Source: Aerococcus viridans (GTDB taxonomy: Bacteria; Bacillota; Bacilli; Lactobacillales; Aerococcaceae). Taken from it: a stretch of 64,000 nt of DNA. A program made the translations under genes and the position numbers. Positions 19,784 to 30,872 of the stretch are shown in pieces; the stretch's first letter is position 1, and each line of letters begins with the position of its first letter. Location of the stretch: contig NZ_CP014164.1 in NCBI RefSeq assembly GCF_001543285.1, positions 434,001 through 498,000 of the forward strand, in the 5' to 3' direction. A model generated the notes under the pieces. That model was not told where the DNA came from, did no database searches, and saw only the letters and a program-made list of their open reading frames with translations.

Positions 19784-20198
19784 TTTTGAACTTGTTATGA
19801 GTATATGGGTCTGGCATAATAATTACAAATAACTATTATATGTCGGTTTTCATAGTTTGAAACTATGGTAAGGAGTGAGCGTATGCGGATTGAAGATTTG
19901 CAGTATTTTATGAAGGTTGTTGAAGTGGGAAATATGACGCAGGCGGCCAAGAACTTGTTTATTGCCCAGCCGTCTTTGTCGAAAGCCATGGCCAATTTGG
20001 AGTCTGAGATGGGGGTAACCTTGTTTCAGCGGACGGCTAAGGGGACGGTTCTGACGGTGCAAGGGGAGGAATTCCTCCAGTATGCCCGGCAAGTCTTGGA
20101 GCAGATTGACTTGATGAACCACCGCTATAAGGAAGGAAGTCAGGCCAACCGGATATTTTCAGTATCTGGCCAGCATTATGCCTTTGTAGTGGATGCCT
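19784..20198 (+). repeat. duplicated lysR promoter/5' segment, copy A
   Basis: About 415 bp that are nearly identical to 24018-24432 (offset 4234). It covers the divergent promoter, MET-box and first ~105 codons of lysR. After 20198 the two copies still encode similar protein but differ at many synonymous positions. Confidence 0.9.
19851..19867. promoter_or_regulatory. MET-box operator (MtaR/CmbR type)
   Basis: CATAGTTTGAAACTATG is a perfect 17-bp palindrome matching the streptococcal MET-box TATAGTTTnAAACTATA at all but the outermost bases. On the reverse strand it lies just upstream of a TATAAT (ACATATAATAG), as expected for a LysR-type activator site for the MetE-like gene. Confidence 0.8.
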
Positions 20199-20335
20199 TC
20201 GTAAAGCTTCTTAGCGAAATGGACGCTGATCAATATGAAGCAACCCTAAAAGAAGAGTGGACCTTCGAAGTCTTGGACGACGTAGCCAATTTGAAATCAG
20301 AAATTGGTGTTATCTATGCTTCTCAATTACTCTAA
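19883..20335 (+). pseudogene. truncated LysR-type regulator (MtaR-like copy 1)
   Basis: The reading frame starts at ATG 19883 (RBS AAGGAGTGAG) and encodes a complete winged HTH (MRIEDLQYFMKVVEVGNMTQ, AQPSLSKAMANLE). It stops after about 150 residues, half the normal length. Homology to the full copy at 24117-25028 ends at ...EIGVIY (about 20316). From there the sequence belongs to an IS3-type fragment on the reverse strand. The effector-binding domain is lost, so it is probably inactive, though it could still bind DNA. Confidence 0.85.
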
Positions 20336-24018: not shown

Positions 24019-24432
24019 TTTGAACTTGTTATGAGTATATGGGTCTGGCATAATAATTACAAATAACTATTATATGCCGGTTTTCATAGCTTGAAACTAT
24101 GGTAAGGAGTGAGCGTATGCGGATTGAAGATTTGCAGTATTTTATGAAGGTTGTTGAAGTGGGGAATATGACGCAGGCGGCCAAGGATTTGTTTATTGCC
24201 CAGCCATCTTTGTCGAAAGCCATGGCCAATTTGGAGTCTGAGATGGGGGTAACTTTGTTTCAGCGGACGGCTAAGGGGACGATTCTGACGGTGCAGGGGG
24301 AGGAATTTCTCCAGTATGCCCGGCAAGTCTTGGAGCAGATTGACTTGATGAACCACCGCTATAAAGAAGGAAGTCAGGCCAACCGGATATTTTCAGTATC
24401 TGGCCAGCATTATGCCTTTGTAGTGGATGCTT
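24018..24432 (+). repeat. duplicated lysR promoter/5' segment, copy B
   Basis: Counterpart of 19784-20198, with only scattered substitutions. It is attached to the full-length lysR. Confidence 0.9.
24085..24101. promoter_or_regulatory. MET-box operator, copy B
   Basis: CATAGCTTGAAACTATG, one base off the perfect palindrome of copy A. It lies between lysR and the divergent metE-metF operon and could serve metE control. Confidence 0.65.
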
Positions 24433-25028
24433 TCGTGAAGTTACTAAAAGAGATGGATGCAGACCAATATGAAGCGACATTAAAAGAAGAACGAACATTT
24501 GAGGTGTTAGATGATGTTGCTAATTTTATCTCTGAGGTGGGCGTTATTTACCGGTCTAATTATAATCAGAAGGTATTAGAAGGGGCTTTTCAAGAGAAGC
24601 AACTAACTTTTACGCCATTGTTTAAAACTGCACCACATGTGTTTATTGATAAAGGTCATCCTTTAGCGAAACAAGCGACCATTAGTTTAGATGACTTAAC
24701 CGCTTATCCTCGTTTATCTTATGAACAAGGTACCCACAATTCTTTCTACTATTGGGAAGAGATTTTAGCGGATATTCCTGTCCCAAAACGGATTATTGTT
24801 TCTGACCGAGCAACTTTATTTAATTTACTCATCGGTCTAGATGGCTATACGATTTCTTCAGGGATAATCAATGATGACTTGAACAGTCCGGATATATTAG
24901 CAATTCCTCTTGAATCAGACGAGGTGATTGAACTAGGTTACCTAACCGCTAATCGTCACCAGCTGTCTTCAATAGCCAAACGCTACTTAGGCTTACTCGA
25001 GGAATCTATCCAACAATATGCTAAATAA
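24117..25028 (+). CDS. LysR-type methionine regulator (MtaR/CmbR-like)
   Basis: 303-residue LysR-family activator. The N-terminal winged HTH (about 1-60) has MTQAAKDLFIAQPSLSKAMA. A linker helix and a full effector-binding domain (about 90-300) follow. The MET-box upstream, the divergent metE-metF operon and the MetE-like gene beside the sister copy make methionine/cysteine control the likely role. Effector identity is inferred (O-acetylserine or homocysteine in relatives). RBS AAGGAGTGAG precedes ATG 24117. Confidence 0.85.
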   Translation: MRIEDLQYFMKVVEVGNMTQAAKDLFIAQPSLSKAMANLESEMGVTLFQRTAKGTILTVQGEEFLQYARQVLEQIDLMNHRYKEGSQANRIFSVSGQHYAFVVDAFVKLLKEMDADQYEATLKEERTFEVLDDVANFISEVGVIYRSNYNQKVLEGAFQEKQLTFTPLFKTAPHVFIDKGHPLAKQATISLDDLTAYPRLSYEQGTHNSFYYWEEILADIPVPKRIIVSDRATLFNLLIGLDGYTISSGIINDDLNSPDILAIPLESDEVIELGYLTANRHQLSSIAKRYLGLLEESIQQYAK

Positions 25029-25638: not shown

Positions 25639-26031
25639 ATGGCACAAGCTCAATACATCGCAACAGGCCGTCGTAAAAACTCAACAGCCCGTGTACGCTT
25701 AGTACCTGGTACAGGTAAAATCGTTTTTAACGGTAAAGAAATGGCAGAATACCTACCATACGAATCATTATTCGTAATCGTTAAACAACCTTTAGCAGTT
25801 ACACAAACTGAAGGCCAATATGACATCTTCATCAACGTTAACGGTGGTGGATATGCTGGTCAATCAGGTGCAGCTCGTCACGGTATCTCTCGTGCATTAC
25901 TAGAAGTAGATCCTGACTTCCGTAAACCACTTAAAGATGCTGGTCTTTTAACACGTGACCCACGTATGAAAGAACGTAAGAAACCAGGTCTTAAAAAAGC
26001 GCGTAAAGCACCTCAATTCTCAAAACGTTAA
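25639..26031 (+). CDS. rpsI: 30S ribosomal protein S9
   Basis: 130-residue S9 whose C-terminal tail reaches the P-site tRNA. It has [31 protein letters not shown] and the [12 protein letters not shown] tail. RBS AAGGAGGG. Last gene of rplM-rpsI. Confidence 0.98.
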
Positions 26032-26040
26032 TTGCTGGAG

Positions 26041-26110
26041 CCGTTGCGAATTTATTCGCTTACGGATACAGTACGGGACGGAGATTTCTAAGGAAATCGA
26101 GTACCAACCC
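26041..26110 (+). other. structured 3' region of rpsI
   Basis: CCGT-GCGAA/TTCGC-ACGG at 26041-26065, then GTAC...GATTTC/GAAATC...GTAC at 26071-26104. It lies between the rpsI stop and its terminator. No gene; role unknown. Confidence 0.35.
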
Positions 26111-26121
26111 ATATATAAATC

Positions 26122-26161
26122 AAAAAGACATTTCTCACTTATGTGGGGAATGTCTTTTTTT
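26122..26161 (+). terminator. rpsI terminator
   Basis: AAAAAGACATTTCTC pairs imperfectly with GGGGAATGTCTTTTTT; the T-run continues from the stem. Confidence 0.85.
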
Positions 26162-26238
26162 AGTGTTCAATTTTACGTATTATAAACAGGTTTATGAACT
26201 ATAAAGTACACCTTATAGGTTATATCATAAAGATATAA

Positions 26239-26520
26239 ATGAAGACTTACAATATCCTTGGTAAGGTGATTCATGTGAATAGAAAAATCAATATTTTTTT
26301 AATAGTATTTCTCTTGTTAATTATTATAGCTGCGTTAGTAGTGGGTTTATTCGATTTAATTAGATATCAATCATGGATTGTTAATTCGTTGTATATATTT
26401 GGTGGTTTAGTTATTGTTATTAATTTTGGGCGTGCTATACAGCTTTTAAAAAAGTTCATTGATAAAGATAAAAGGCTATTCTTGATATTAGTTCCGTTGA
26501 TACCATTGTATTTTTCTTGA
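26239..26520 (+). CDS. small hypothetical membrane protein, possibly frameshifted
   Basis: Up to 93 residues with three hydrophobic segments. An alternative start at GTG 26275 is better supported (AAGGTG seven bases upstream), giving 81 residues. After the stop another frame continues with hydrophobic coding-like sequence (FFLIFKNLTFLVLAV ... ISNFKNKKK, stop near 26600). The present stop could therefore result from a frameshift. I do not recognise the family. Confidence 0.4.
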   Translation: MKTYNILGKVIHVNRKINIFLIVFLLLIIIAALVVGLFDLIRYQSWIVNSLYIFGGLVIVINFGRAIQLLKKFIDKDKRLFLILVPLIPLYFS

Positions 26521-26623
26521 TATTTAAAAATTTAACTTTTTTAGTTTTAGCTGTTACCCTAACAGGGCCAGTTATTTCGAATTTTAAAAATAAGAAAAAA
26601 TAAAAATTTCAAAAAAGAGTAAT

Positions 26624-26673
26624 ATGCCCCCTAAAGTAGACACTTAATAAAATAAATCTACTTTAGGAGGTAT
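26624..26673. mobile_element. IS3-like inverted-repeat remnant
   Basis: ATGCCCCCTAAAGTAGA and TCTACTTTAGGAGGTAT face each other across 16 bp (15 of 17 match). CCCCTAAAGTAGACAC-like ends are typical of IS3-group elements. No transposase is left. The surrounding 360 bp hold nothing else but a reverse terminator. Confidence 0.4.
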
Positions 26674-26732
26674 ATTATTATGTGGGAAACATCTTTTTAT
26701 TCTATCAAATTCCATTTTAAAGATGAAATCGA

Positions 26733-26768
26733 ATAAAAAAAGGTACTTGATATATTCACCAAGTACCT
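26733..26768 (-). terminator. nrd operon terminator (reverse strand)
   Basis: Reverse strand: AGGTACTTG/CAAGTACCT with a 10-nt loop followed by TTTTTTTATTC, 113 bp beyond the nrdF stop. Confidence 0.85.
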
Positions 26769-26880
26769 TCCTACAAGAGGGACTTTTTATGCTCACTTTT
26801 CCAATAGTAATTTTTCGTTTTTCCAGATACTTAGTAGCTTGCTTCTAAGTTTGAAGGGGGAATGGTATATATTTGATTGG

Positions 26881-27834
26881 TTATTCAAATATGTAATCTT
26901 CGTCTGACATTTCTTCAGCATTCCCCATAAGATAACCTGCACCTACTTGAGAAAAGAAATCATGATTAGATGTTTCAATTGAAATACCGTTCATCACAAT
27001 CGGATTGACGTCCTTCGCGAGGGCATTCTCAAAGTAGATCCCAAAGCCCATATTTTGTAGAGATTTATTAGCATTATATTTAACAAATGTCTTGATATCT
27101 TCTGCTAATCCGATTTCAGTATATAATTCTTCTGTAAATGCGAATTCTTTCTCAAGCAATTCTTCTAAGAAACTATACATCCATTGAGTGAACGCTTCTT
27201 GCTCATCTTGTGTCAGCTCTTCAAAATCTTGCCTAAATTTATAACCAAGATATGTACCATGAACCGATTCATCTCGGATGACTAATTTAATAAGTTCAGC
27301 CAAATTGGCAAGTTTATTTTGACCACGATACCACAGTGGGATAAAGAAATTACTGTAATATAAGATACCTTCTAAGAAAACACTCGCTACCTTTACTTGT
27401 ATAGGTGTACCATTTTGATATATATTATTGATTTTCTCTGCTTTAAATTGCATCATTGGATCGTTGTTCATCCAATCGTAAATTTCTTCAATATCTTTGA
27501 ATGTATTTAAGGATATTAAAATGGTCCCATAGGTTTTAGCGTGGATCGACTCCATAAACATAAAATTGCTTAGAACAGCTCGCTCTTTCTGCGTTCTTGC
27601 ATGTTTCTTTAACGCATATAGGCCTTCTTCTGATTGCAGCGTGTCTAAAAGTGCGAGGCCTCCCACTGCTTTTTTGACAATTTCTTTCTCCATAGTTGAT
27701 AATTTTTTCCATTCTAATAAGTCATTAGAAACAGGAACTCTAGTGTCCAACCAAAATTGGGCAGTGGCTTTATCCCAGACAAATTCATCTAACTCATCCT
27801 CGATAAGTTGCCAATTCATTGTTTTATGTATCAT
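26881..27834 (-). CDS. nrdF: class Ib ribonucleotide reductase beta subunit
   Basis: 317-residue R2 (NrdF) that carries the radical cofactor for making deoxynucleotides. All six metal ligands of class Ib are present: Asp in LALLDTLQ, Glu and His in FMESIHAKTY, Glu in SVFLEGILYY, and Glu and His in IRDESVHGTY. The radical Tyr is in HAKTY. The C-terminus ends SDEDYIFE, the usual NrdE-docking tail. The start at 27834 follows a better RBS (AAAGGAAAC) than the in-frame ATG five codons upstream. It is the last gene of nrdI-nrdF'-nrdF. Confidence 0.92.
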   Translation of the reverse strand: MIHKTMNWQLIEDELDEFVWDKATAQFWLDTRVPVSNDLLEWKKLSTMEKEIVKKAVGGLALLDTLQSEEGLYALKKHARTQKERAVLSNFMFMESIHAKTYGTILISLNTFKDIEEIYDWMNNDPMMQFKAEKINNIYQNGTPIQVKVASVFLEGILYYSNFFIPLWYRGQNKLANLAELIKLVIRDESVHGTYLGYKFRQDFEELTQDEQEAFTQWMYSFLEELLEKEFAFTEELYTEIGLAEDIKTFVKYNANKSLQNMGFGIYFENALAKDVNPIVMNGISIETSNHDFFSQVGAGYLMGNAEEMSDEDYIFE

Positions 27835-27941
27835 AATGTTTCCTTTCACGATTAGTAGTTATTGTCACCAAACCTGCTTATTTAATATTATCTGGTGAAC
27901 ATATCTTTTCTCTCAATTACTTTTACTCTTAGCCATATTAT

Positions 27942-28895
27942 TTAAAAAACGTAATCCGATTCGTTCATTACTTCTTCTGTATTTGTGGTATTTTTGTTAT
28001 TGTAATTATTCAGATTATGAGCGCGTAGTTCGTCTAATTGCGTATTGATCGCGGCTATATTTTCTTGATTAAAAGCATAAATCTCATTCAGACCAATACC
28101 GGCGAGAATGTGGTTTGCCTCTTGCATTACTAGGTTGAATGCGACTGTTTTACTACTTCCTATTGTATAAAAGGTATCGATTAATTGATCAGCTAGTACT
28201 ACAAAATCATCAACAATCTCCATACCCCAACTTTTAAACTGGGCTACTTGTTTTGAACTTGCTTCCTTTAACAATAGATTCACTTTATAATTTAGATAAT
28301 AACAATGTAAAGATTCATTTCGAACAATCATTTTGAGCATACTGCCGAGGTTCAAAAAGTTTCGGTCTAGCCATAATTCAAAAAGATAAGAAAGGTACGT
28401 GTAATTTAAAATGCCTTCAACACATATGGCCATGAATCTTTTTTTCAAAGGATCTGCGCTTTGGTAGGTCATATGTATTTTTTCTATATAATCCCTTACC
28501 TGAGGATTAGTATCGACCCAATCAAATGCTTTTTGAGAACCTATATCCTGATTAAATATGCTTAAAATGCGGTTATAGGCCTTTGTATGAACCATTTCAG
28601 TAAATTGAAAATTATTTATGATTGCAATCTCTTGTTGGGAACGTGCACTATCTCGAATAATTTCTCCTAATTCATTGGATTGATAGGTAGCGATATTAGT
28701 CAAAAGAATCAACAAGCGATTGAGCTGCTCTTGTTCTTGTAATTGTAAATTTGCCCATTTTGATCGATCATTTTCGATGGGGACACGTGTATCCAACCAA
28801 AAAAGTGAGGTTGCTCTTTCCCATACAACGTTGTCTAATTCATCCTCAATGACATTCCAGTTAATTGCTTTATAGTGTAAATAATTATTTAACAT
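27942..28895 (-). CDS. divergent NrdF paralogue lacking one metal ligand
   Basis: 317-residue protein aligning along its whole length with the neighbouring NrdF (FWLDTRVP ... NDxxxW). Compared without gaps, the first metal ligand Asp (LLDT) is Ala (NIAT). The other five ligands remain: Glu and His in FTEMVHTKAY, Glu in CVEGILNY, and Glu and His in VRNESLHCYY. The Tyr in TKAY is kept. It also keeps a C-terminal tail ending NESDYVF, so it should still dock on NrdE. The ATG at 28895 has RBS TAGGAGG; an earlier in-frame ATG at 28940 lacks one. It may be a regulatory or helper beta subunit. Confidence 0.88.
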   Translation of the reverse strand: MLNNYLHYKAINWNVIEDELDNVVWERATSLFWLDTRVPIENDRSKWANLQLQEQEQLNRLLILLTNIATYQSNELGEIIRDSARSQQEIAIINNFQFTEMVHTKAYNRILSIFNQDIGSQKAFDWVDTNPQVRDYIEKIHMTYQSADPLKKRFMAICVEGILNYTYLSYLFELWLDRNFLNLGSMLKMIVRNESLHCYYLNYKVNLLLKEASSKQVAQFKSWGMEIVDDFVVLADQLIDTFYTIGSSKTVAFNLVMQEANHILAGIGLNEIYAFNQENIAAINTQLDELRAHNLNNYNNKNTTNTEEVMNESDYVF

Positions 28896-28936
28896 AGTAC
28901 CTCCTAAAATATTGTTTGAAAGGGGATGATATGGTG

Positions 28937-29398
28937 TCATTTTTTATGTCCCTGGTTATGCAGTTTTTCGGCAATTCTCTCTATATCTTCTGTCGTACCT
29001 TTTAGTTCAAATTCATCCAATACGGTAAAACCAAAATCATCGGCGTATTGATAGGCTGTTAGGCAAAATTGTTTATTGAAGTTTCTGTTGCCGCTACCAA
29101 TAATTCCTAAACAATAGTCTCGGTTTTTATTGTAAGTAATCACTTGGCGCAATGGTGTTGTCAAAATTTCGATATCTCCTGTTTCAATACCATTTCCACC
29201 TTCAAGATAAGTAGGCAGAAATACAAAATAGGATTCATTGATGTCAAAAGTGAGTGGTTTTCCTAATTTGACCAAATCTTTTACATTCACATAATCTACC
29301 TTTTTTTGATATTGTTTTTGACAATACGTATCTAAATCTGCGAGAAAACTCGTGGTATTTCCACTTAAACTAATATAATAGACTTTAATTATTTGCAT
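28937..29398 (-). CDS. nrdI: NrdI flavodoxin-like protein
   Basis: 153-residue FMN protein that in class Ib systems supplies the oxidant for assembling the dimanganese-tyrosyl cofactor of NrdF. The FMN phosphate loop is SLSGNTTSF; PTYLEGGNGIETGDIEIL, then TTPLR, and GSGNRNFNKQFCLTA are NrdI signatures, of the longer (~150-residue) streptococcal type. It is the first gene of the operon, with RBS AGAGGTG and 41 bp to the next gene. Confidence 0.93.
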   Translation of the reverse strand: MQIIKVYYISLSGNTTSFLADLDTYCQKQYQKKVDYVNVKDLVKLGKPLTFDINESYFVFLPTYLEGGNGIETGDIEILTTPLRQVITYNKNRDYCLGIIGSGNRNFNKQFCLTAYQYADDFGFTVLDEFELKGTTEDIERIAEKLHNQGHKK

Positions 29399-29423
29399 GT
29401 ATCACACCTCTTTTTAATAAATA

Positions 29424-29470
29424 ACCACATATATAGTGCTTGTTTTAATTAGAAACACTATATATAGTGT
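29424..29470. promoter_or_regulatory. tandem NrdR boxes
   Basis: ACACTATATATAGTGT (29455-29470) is a perfect palindrome and a full match to the NrdR-box consensus aCaCwAtATaTwGtgt. A weaker box ACCACATATATAGTGC (29424-29439, intact right half) lies 31 bp away centre to centre, the three-turn spacing typical of NrdR pairs. They sit upstream of nrdI and could also affect the divergent FNR-like gene. Confidence 0.85.
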
Positions 29471-29544
29471 GTATTGTACATGACATATCGTTATAGAAAA
29501 TTGACGATAGTCATTTTTTTTGATTTTAGAGGAGAGAAAATTAC

Positions 29545-30210
29545 ATGAAAAATTCAGGTTGTTTATGCACCGTTCCACTCTTCGCCCCTCTTTCATTAGA
29601 TGAAAAAAATGAGATAAAGTGTTTGCTTCACCATCAGACGTTTAAAAAAGGAGAAATTATTTTTTCACCAAGTAGTGAAGAACAACTGTTGATTATACCT
29701 TTAGGGGCTATGAAAATATATCGAATTAGTAGAACTGGGAAGGAGCAATTAATTCGTATCGTAAAAGAAGGAGATTACGACGGTGAGAACTATCTCTTTG
29801 GTCTACCCAATGACTGCCTATATGGTGAAGCTGTTGAAGAAACCAGAACTTGCACTCTCTATAAATCCGACTTTAATAAAGTGATGGCACGCTATCCACA
29901 GCTCAGTTATCGATTGTTACAATTAAATGCTTGCAAAACAGTAGCTGTGGAAAAACAGTTGCAGCTTCTAGCGTTTGATCGTATAGAGGAACGGTTAGCC
30001 TTATATCTTAGCCAACTATCTATAGCAGCAAAAATGGGGGAGCTTTTTACTTTACCTATCTCTATGAGAGAGTTGGCAAACTATCTAGCTACCAGTCCTG
30101 AAACTATTTCTCGTAAATTAAGAGATTTTCAAGAAAGAAAATTGATTACTAGAAAAGGAAAGCAGATTACACTATTAGAAGAATTTTGGCTTACATTCGA
30201 TTACATATAA
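29545..30210 (+). CDS. Crp/Fnr-family regulator (FLP-like)
   Basis: 221-residue regulator with an N-terminal cyclic-nucleotide-type beta-roll (about 15-125) and a C-terminal winged HTH, whose recognition region is MRELANYLATSPETISRKLRDF. The N-terminus has closely spaced Cys (GCLCTVPLF), as in FNR-like proteins of lactic acid bacteria that sense redox through cysteines. More Cys occur at IKCLL, NDCLY and RTCTLY. RBS GAGGAGAG. Its divergence from nrdI suggests oxygen- or redox-linked control of the nrd genes, which is inference. Confidence 0.85.
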   Translation: MKNSGCLCTVPLFAPLSLDEKNEIKCLLHHQTFKKGEIIFSPSSEEQLLIIPLGAMKIYRISRTGKEQLIRIVKEGDYDGENYLFGLPNDCLYGEAVEETRTCTLYKSDFNKVMARYPQLSYRLLQLNACKTVAVEKQLQLLAFDRIEERLALYLSQLSIAAKMGELFTLPISMRELANYLATSPETISRKLRDFQERKLITRKGKQITLLEEFWLTFDYI

Positions 30211-30266
30211 AGAATTATAGACGTATAAAAATTAGTAACTAGCATTTAACGGAATAAAGGGGAGTC

Positions 30267-30380
30267 CTGTATAAAGGTGTAGATAAATATTTTGATGAAG
30301 AATATGTCTATGATTTCTAATTGAAAGCAAATAATGGCGTATTAAACAAGTTTATTAAGGAAGTATTTTCAAAAAGTTGA
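30267..30380 (+). pseudogene. short coding remnant
   Basis: In the 359-bp gap after the FNR-like gene one frame reads LYKGVDKYFDEEYVYDF, a TAA, then LKANNGVLNKFIKEVFSKS and stop. It looks coding-like but has an internal stop and no start. I do not recognise the parent protein. Confidence 0.3.
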
Positions 30381-30383
30381 ATA

Positions 30384-30412
30384 CAAAAAAAGAGCTATTA
30401 TTAGCTCTTTAA
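30384..30412 (-). terminator. terminator of the DUF805/DUF4298 pair (reverse strand)
   Basis: Reverse strand AAAGAGCTA/TAGCTCTTT with a 4-nt loop, followed by TTTTGTAT. Confidence 0.7.
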
Positions 30413-30569
30413 CGCTTCTCATACTTACAGATTTGACTATGTTTTGAATATTTTGATTATTATTTCTATTAGATGTCAATCTTTGTTCTATATTAGAGAC
30501 TTACCATCTCAACAATAATCTACAGATAAAATATTGAACCTACTTCAATTCACTAGCTATGAAGTAAGA

Positions 30570-30872
30570 CTATTTTTCTGTTAATTCATCACCAACACTT
30601 TTTAGTTTATTGGCTAAATCCATAATATCTATAACAAGGTCATAGCTGTAGTCTTCTCCTAGTACAGCTGTTGTACGAGCATCTTCAAATAAGCCTTGTT
30701 CTTTCATCTTTAAATGTTTAAACCAAGTCTCACTGCCATAGTAGTGAAGAAATAGTTTGATATTTGGTAGGTATTTTTCAAAATTTTCTAGGGAATCAGA
30801 CATGGCCTCAATTTCTTTAGAAATCTTCAAAAAATTTTCTTCCATCTCATAAAAATTATCAGTATCCTTCAT
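30570..30872 (-). CDS. DUF4298-like protein
   Basis: 100-residue acidic, largely helical protein. The segment LFLHYYGSETWFKHLKMKEQG, followed further on by AVLGEDYSYDLVIDI, resembles the DUF4298 pattern (YYgSexW ... gVLseD..ydll). Function unknown. It lies 38 bp after the DUF805-like gene on the same strand. Confidence 0.6.
   Translation of the reverse strand: MKDTDNFYEMEENFLKISKEIEAMSDSLENFEKYLPNIKLFLHYYGSETWFKHLKMKEQGLFEDARTTAVLGEDYSYDLVIDIMDLANKLKSVGDELTEK

Follow-up and report, generated by a model that had tools for sequence, protein, structure and literature searches.

A degenerate NrdF paralogue conserved in tandem-beta class Ib operons suggests a bacterial ribonucleotide reductase with two different beta chains

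Why should a ribonucleotide reductase (RNR) operon encode two different beta chains and no catalytic subunit? The question is raised by a locus in a 64-kb stretch of the Aerococcus viridans genome (the window, to whose positions all coordinates refer unless another locus is named), where the minus strand carries nrdI, a divergent nrdF paralogue that we call nrdF', and a canonical nrdF, in this order, followed by an inverted repeat with a T-run. The product of nrdI (28937..29398, 153 aa), the flavodoxin-like activase of class Ib RNR, scores 198.7 bits against NF002714 (cut-off 190) and matches PF07972 at E 3e-33; those of nrdF' (27942..28895, 317 aa) and nrdF (26881..27849, likely start ATG 27834) match PF00268 at E 1.5e-39 and E 1.7e-75. 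These family models, together with a PF02867 search for nrdE, bear out a preliminary description of the locus as nrdI with two different NrdF-like genes and no local nrdE, a gene set that falls short of a class Ib nrd operon (nrdE with nrdF and nrdI). Our main finding is that a degenerate NrdF' is conserved across a set of tandem-beta operons, which suggests a bacterial RNR with two different beta chains. More specifically, we propose, with a probability of about 0.6, that this is a horizontally acquired two-beta class Ib RNR operon in which NrdF' would act as an Rnr4-like beta-prime beside a radical-making NrdF.

Residue positions are given here in E. coli NrdF numbering, and the roles of the named residues, like that of NrdI, are established knowledge of the RNR family. 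At the ten positions checked, the window's nrdF reads WDEHYEDEHY, with the six ligands, Tyr105, Trp and the C-terminal Tyr tail all present; this complete set and a TIGR04171 score of 418 bits (cut-off 355) place it in class Ib NrdF. In contrast, NrdF' reaches 165 bits against the same cut-off of 355 and has an incomplete ligand set, with D67->A and D191->N. Its reading frame is open up to 28940, and we place the start at ATG 28895 because this codon is preceded by AGGAGGT and yields 317 aa, a common length among nrdF' relatives. The AlphaFold model of NrdF' has an ordinary NrdF fold (mean predicted local distance difference test score, pLDDT, 86), and its top solved match is the Mn-NrdF of S. 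sanguinis (4n83).

The arrangement of the locus was compared in 32 distinct loci with nrdI and nrdF', from which repeats were left out (L021, L023 and L144-L149; two repeats were checked by sequence). The order nrdI-nrdE-nrdF'-nrdF is found in 30/32. The two loci without nrdE are the window and an Enterococcus faecium plasmid locus (L141), in which nrdF' is truncated by an IS30 transposase gene. Where nrdF' is complete, in 31 operons, the beta gene that follows it on its own strand is in every case an nrdF with none of the ten checked residues altered. The distance from nrdF' to nrdF is -3 to 271 bp in 27 operons and 859-936 bp in four, in one of which (L136) a thiol peroxidase gene lies between them. 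These 31 operons are not independent, as they form 20 clusters at 90% NrdF' identity. A single nrdH query picked up no nrdH in the tandem operons, the protein being short and easily missed. In the Streptococcus henryi operon (L013:4827-6984), nrdE is split over two overlapping frames, with nrdF' and nrdF intact.

Across these operons the degeneration of NrdF' follows a constant pattern: D67 and D191 are lost in 31/31, and Trp31 and the C-terminal Tyr are retained in 31/31. Position 101 is His in 17. At position 105 Tyr is found in 23, Cys in three, Phe and Val in two each, and Ile in one; given this variation, Tyr105 is not a required radical site throughout. A protein search with NrdF', which reaches only relatives sharing short words with the query, returned 66 relatives at 36-98% identity. 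Among them Asp67 is replaced by Ser, Ala or Thr in all 65 that cover the position, Asp191 is Asn in 66/66, and at position 101 Asn predominates (59, against 6 with His and 1 with Ala; the window's NrdF' has His); E98, E158, E192 and H195 are retained in 66/66, and position 105 is Tyr in 64/66 and Phe in 2/66. A faster-evolving NrdF' clade from Lactobacillaceae and Enterococcaceae (L138, L139, L143 and L183-L189) accounts for 10 of the 31 operons; here E192 and H195 are lost in 10/10, five carry Lys in place of E98 and two have a changed E158, and position 105 is C, V, I, F or Y. As a control, 27/29 rows of other NrdF keep all ten checked residues, the two exceptions being class Ie proteins with V/P/K. 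From the loss of Asp67 and Asp191 we infer that NrdF' most likely cannot make a radical, or pass one on, in the usual way, so that usual radical chemistry is most likely absent from it, and from the metal-ligand loss that the module combines one radical-making beta with one beta most likely unable to make a radical.

Has NrdF' been maintained, or is it debris? The preliminary description had named one outcome as fatal to it, that the homologues of NrdF' are all pseudogenes. This is not so: the frame is open in 31/31 operons, and among 18 pairs of operons other than the window's (5 dropped, with the synonymous rate, dS, of nrdF or of both genes saturated), the ratio of nonsynonymous to synonymous rates (dN/dS) of nrdF' is 0.09-0.24 in 12/13 usable pairs and 0.80 in one pair with a dS of 0.01. 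For nrdF the ratio is 0.00-0.10 in the 13 usable pairs. These values point to NrdF' being mostly under purifying selection, as seen in the other operons and not in the window's own copy. In a tree of beta chains, drawn with phmmer-chosen NrdF rows and a midpoint root, the 23 NrdF' rows form one side of a single branch (support 98/96) and the 18 partner NrdF rows one side of another (99/99); a single origin of NrdF' is favoured, with the reservation that the NrdF' branches are long and the tool warns of false joining. Pairwise identities of NrdF' correlate with those of NrdF, NrdE and NrdI at r 0.95 each, and those among the other three at 0.90-0.96 (NrdE with NrdI 0.96), which speaks for block inheritance of the whole operon and not for contact.

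The tandem pair is found well beyond Aerococcus. In an order-wide PF00268 count over 395 genomes, this genome has four matches and at least 13 others have three. The follow-up covered 16 genomes from other genera: the 13 with three matches, all of which have the tandem pair with nrdF' first, and three with two matches, in which the pair is absent. A first order-wide search (E up to 1e-90) had found 7/395, missing the Lactobacillus/Enterococcus NrdF' clade. Among 76 genomes of the family, the sole match at the level of NrdF' is this genome (E 1.6e-147; next best 2.4e-88). Plasmid records gave 276 protein matches at 1e-20, ordinary NrdF genes included, from Lactiplantibacillus (114), Enterococcus (35), Lactococcus (31), Latilactobacillus (30), Pediococcus (15) and others; ten plasmid loci were read, and on plasmids of this kind NrdF' is annotated as just another beta subunit. 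Viral contigs, scanned with NrdF' alone, held no relative. Among phage sequences 100 records match at 1e-20, all at <60% identity. The 20 matches listed are beta genes of class Ia/Ib type from Enterococcus phages, 32-33% identical, with no close NrdF' among them.

What, then, became of nrdE? The complete genome was searched (2.2 Mb, one contig, 99.96% complete), as the preliminary description had proposed for nrdE, nrdH and further copies of nrdF. It contains two further nrd sets, an nrdHIEF operon and an nrdIEF operon, each with nrdE; these two genes are the only PF02867 matches in the genome, and both lie away from the locus. A remnant of nrdE was sought in the nrdI-nrdF' spacer and none was found. 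The locus lies within an apparently horizontally acquired insert (26162..30588) that is absent by blastn from three relatives (G006, G012 and G014), one of which (G012) has 196 bp there instead. Fourteen E. faecium plasmid records, one of them (L141) read in detail, match positions 28557-30214 at 97.6% DNA identity, a region that comprises the regulator gene, nrdI, the nrdE-less junction and the start of nrdF'. The common junction implies that nrdE was gone before the Aerococcus and E. faecium copies parted, and hence that the loss is not private to this strain, the other outcome that would have told against the preliminary description. Since nrdE stands between nrdI and nrdF' in 30/32 loci, the nrdE-less form is, judged by gene order, a derived variant of the tandem-beta operon. 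The earlier view of a beta-plus-activase module that borrows NrdE is thus upheld as far as nrdE is available elsewhere in the genome; that the module is split by nature is not.

As to other forms of NrdF in the genus, two congeners (L105 in G001 and L106 in G011) have a class Ie NrdF with V/P/K at three Glu ligands, a type known from A. urinae (PMC8463856, PMC11846895). A neighbouring protein of the window has its named relatives in A. urinaeequi (87%) and A. viridans (83%), in agreement with a genome close to these two species. A class Ie assignment was also considered for NrdF' and rejected: E98, E158 and E192 are all Glu in the window's protein, which has neither V/P/K nor Q/S/K.

The operon has regulatory features of its own, as had been claimed for the NrdR boxes and for the divergent FNR-like regulator. 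NrdR box 1 (ACACTATATATAGTGT, 29455..29470) is a perfect palindrome (16/16) and the only exact copy in the genome; box 2 (29424..29439), 31 bp from it, is degenerate (12/16). With up to three mismatches, NrdR boxes occur at 7 places in the genome against 15 for the control, without enrichment; since loose matches are no commoner than this, it is the exact copy and the pairing that carry weight. The nrdHIEF operon of the same genome has a box pair with identical 31-bp spacing, and boxes of at least 13/16 lying 31-32 bp apart are also present in L013, L017, L134, L139, L186 and L189; the remaining loci scanned have one box each, except L183, which has none. By its paired upstream boxes about 31 bp apart the operon falls within the NrdR regulon, with a second box that is weak.

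The divergent regulator gene (29545..30210, plus strand) encodes a Crp/Fnr-type protein (PF13545, PF00027), and an Fnr-type palindrome (TTGACGATAGTCAT, 29501..29514) matches TTGAC-N4-GTCAA at 9/10. Within what we term clade A (Streptococcus, Enterococcus, Lactococcus and Aerococcus; the borders of some promoter regions were set by hand), a divergent regulator gene of this type accompanies 15/15 complete operons, and the palindrome is conserved at 9/10 or better in 15/16 promoter regions (those of the 15 operons plus L141), the exception being L140 (7/10). A -10-like hexamer begins 29.5 bp from the palindrome centre in 14/16 and 27.5 bp in the other two, which are near copies; in the window this is the putative -10 hexamer TACAAT of the nrdI promoter (29473..29478, minus strand), directly after which sits the main NrdR box. 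Single Fnr-type sites of such strength are common by chance, with 9 in the window, so it is the fixed position that constitutes the evidence. The site would lie at about -41.5 relative to the nrdI promoter, where class II activator sites for Crp/Fnr proteins are usually located. The columns of Cys6 and Cys103 of the regulator are conserved in 9/9 aligned sequences, its own included. Two cysteines are usual for Gram-positive FNR-like proteins, according to PMC5039431. With its Crp/Fnr fold and two cysteines the regulator is a candidate member of the Flp type, for which oxygen- or redox-dependent DNA binding would be predicted.

What purpose could a beta chain with a damaged metal site serve? 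The beta chains of bacterial RNR are as a rule depicted as homodimers. Yeast RNR, as described in PMC3824934, is an alpha2-beta-beta-prime assembly in which Y4 lacks key residues and is perhaps a chaperone, and yeast Y2Y4 and Plasmodium R2/R4 provide precedents for heteromers. In yeast Rnr2/Rnr4 and Plasmodium R2/R4, as in the operons described here, one competent beta is accompanied by a paralogue without key radical or metal-site residues (PMC3824934). The differences are that the yeast and Plasmodium systems are eukaryotic class Ia, whereas the operons here are class Ib, carry nrdI, are often on plasmids and would form a heteromer by prediction, and that among apicomplexans the two beta genes are in tandem in one genus only (PMC3824934). 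Like Rnr4, NrdF' is a paralogue of a competent beta, has lost ligands and is under selection in operons other than the window's; a strict Rnr4-type role, with a heterodimer that the competent beta needs for assembly or activity, would be a prediction by analogy.

In the mechanism that we envisage, NrdF would be the normal Mn-loading chain, activated by NrdI to the tyrosyl radical. NrdF' retains the fold and Trp31 as well as the C-terminal tail, which docks on NrdE, whereas Asp67 of the first ligand sphere is lost, in many members along with His101, and so is Asp191, which links metal 1 to Trp31. NrdF' most likely pairs with NrdF as beta-beta-prime, either as a structural partner or as an assembly chaperone, a role like that of Rnr4 towards Rnr2 in yeast. 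Given that the operon here is without its own nrdE, the NrdF/NrdF' pair would work with a chromosomal NrdE. The divergent Fnr-type regulator probably activates the operon and NrdR probably represses it; as nrdHIEF has NrdR boxes too, the two operons could be expressed together. We speculate further, with somewhat more doubt than belief, that lactic acid bacteria and their plasmids harbour an obligate alpha2-beta-beta-prime class Ib RNR in which a catalytically dead NrdF' is needed to assemble or position NrdF, the whole being switched by oxygen or redox state through an Fnr-type regulator; the Aerococcus/E. faecium form, reduced to the activase and the two beta chains, would recruit the NrdE of its host.

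The tandem-beta operons can also be set beside bacterial systems. With the class Ib NrdHIEF system they share NrdI, an NrdF with all ligands and, in the window and several other loci, a pair of NrdR boxes; they differ in having the extra NrdF', and the window in being without nrdE. In class Ie (VPK, QSK), too, an NrdF-like protein with lost ligands adjoins nrdI, and nrdIF stretches without nrdE occur (PMC11846895); there, however, three Glu are changed, whereas NrdF' has changes in D67, often H101, and D191 and is accompanied by an intact NrdF. Plasmid pGdh442 of Lactococcus lactis (L135) carries the same operon type, listed as plasmid NrdE, NrdF and NrdI (PMC3019208); unlike the window it has nrdE, and the passage that lists these genes leaves a second, degenerate beta unmentioned (PMC3019208). 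A plasmid gene table has nrdF and nrdF2 as adjacent entries, with no comment on residues (PMC6662855).

Several observations weigh against the reading of NrdF' as an Rnr4-like partner. The window's NrdF' retains five of the six ligands and Tyr105, and E98, E158, E192 and H195 are retained in NrdF' of 21/31 operons; given these ligands, NrdF' may have a mononuclear or unusual metal site. The region before the tail is highly conserved in NrdF and not in NrdF', and NrdF' is far less conserved than NrdF overall (mean pairwise identity over 30 operons 0.41 vs 0.75, with 0.76 for NrdE and 0.56 for NrdI). The tandem pair occurs in at least 14/395 sampled genomes of the order and is hence accessory. 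Finally, in a comparison of the window with L141, the ratio of nonsynonymous to synonymous polymorphism (pN/pS) is 0.81 for the NrdF' N-terminus and 0.99 for the regulator, against 0.21 for nrdI, each value resting on 3-5 synonymous changes, so that constraint may be relaxed in the nrdE-less lineage; the high values would also fit drift in the already broken E. faecium copy alone. It is conceivable from the retained ligands that NrdF' instead generates a radical itself and forms a new beta subclass, its site being mononuclear or free of metal and activated by NrdI as in class Ie. It sits with nrdI, the protein-search relatives hold E98, E158, E192 and H195 without exception and Tyr105 in 64/66, and class Ie shows that loss of ligands need not abolish function (PMC11846895). 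We nevertheless consider a new subclass improbable, since class Ie changes E98/E158/E192 to V/P/K whereas NrdF' is changed at D67, often H101, and D191, since Tyr105 is V, C, I or F in 8/31 operons and E192 and H195 are lost in 10, and since in 31/31 the beta gene that follows is an intact nrdF.

For the Aerococcus copy itself the question is a different one: its module must, on the sequence evidence, either borrow a chromosomal NrdE or be decaying, and decay is a serious rival. The locus would in that case be a remnant that lost nrdE on a mobile element and whose nrdF' and nrdF are drifting, as is suggested by the absence of nrdE against 30 nrdE-bearing tandem operons, by the IS30-cut nrdF' of the E. 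faecium copy with the identical junction, and by the pN/pS of 0.8-1 for the NrdF' N-terminus and the regulator. However, all four open reading frames are intact in the window, as are the main NrdR box and the Fnr-type site; near-identical proteins occur elsewhere (NrdF' at 98% in a cluster of 46 member sequences, NrdF at 99% in a cluster of 34); and the changes in the E. faecium copy, itself broken, tell little about the window copy. In the comparison of the two, nrdI gives a pN/pS of 0.21. On balance we hold decay to be unlikely, if less so than the new subclass. Somewhat more credible, though still tentative, is that this copy is a dedicated split beta module, selected as such and using an NrdE encoded elsewhere, an explanation that concerns this copy only and is compatible with an Rnr4-like NrdF'. 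The two nrdE elsewhere in the genome and the identically spaced NrdR pair at nrdHIEF are consistent with it, and the 104 nrdIF stretches reported among class Ie QSK genomes (PMC11846895) provide a precedent; but the form is unusual for this operon type (2/32 loci) and represents a single nrdE-less lineage among the loci read.

What would a two-beta RNR mean for bacteria? In the open-access literature, most subscription journals not being covered, we found no account of bacteria in which a degenerate NrdF is paired with an NrdF. Half-of-sites reactivity has been discussed for class I enzymes (PMC8463856), and a natural bacterial pair with one siteless chain would let half-sites radical transfer be tested cleanly. 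Non-radical beta chains have until now been known from yeast and Plasmodium; their role would become testable in bacteria. If our reading is true, plasmids of lactic acid bacteria, both food and clinical ones, would also carry these operons as a regulated RNR cargo.

Some further features of the region deserve mention. A terminator after nrdF, as previously described, was recognized by eye as an inverted repeat with a T-run (26740..26769, minus strand; arms 26740-26749 and 26760-26769); the A-run lies on the low-coordinate side of the plus strand, and the 10-nt loop exceeds the limit of our terminator scan, which hence does not list this probable operon terminator. Another inverted repeat, CCTAAAGTAGA...TCTACTTTAGG, lies at 26636-26690 inside the insert beside the nrd genes and resembles an insertion-sequence remnant. 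In two of the relatives that lack the insert (G006 and G014; L180 and L182), a different insertion, about 6 kb long, sits at the rpsI 3' end (window 25982-26164), and the rpsI end is repeated on the far side of these 6 kb, as if rpsI were an integration site; elsewhere in this Aerococcus genome the rpsI end recurs as two short copies (98% and 82%). The start of a LysR-type gene upstream of rplM is present as a second, partial copy about 4 kb away (19866-20316 vs 24100-24550, 90% over 451 bp).

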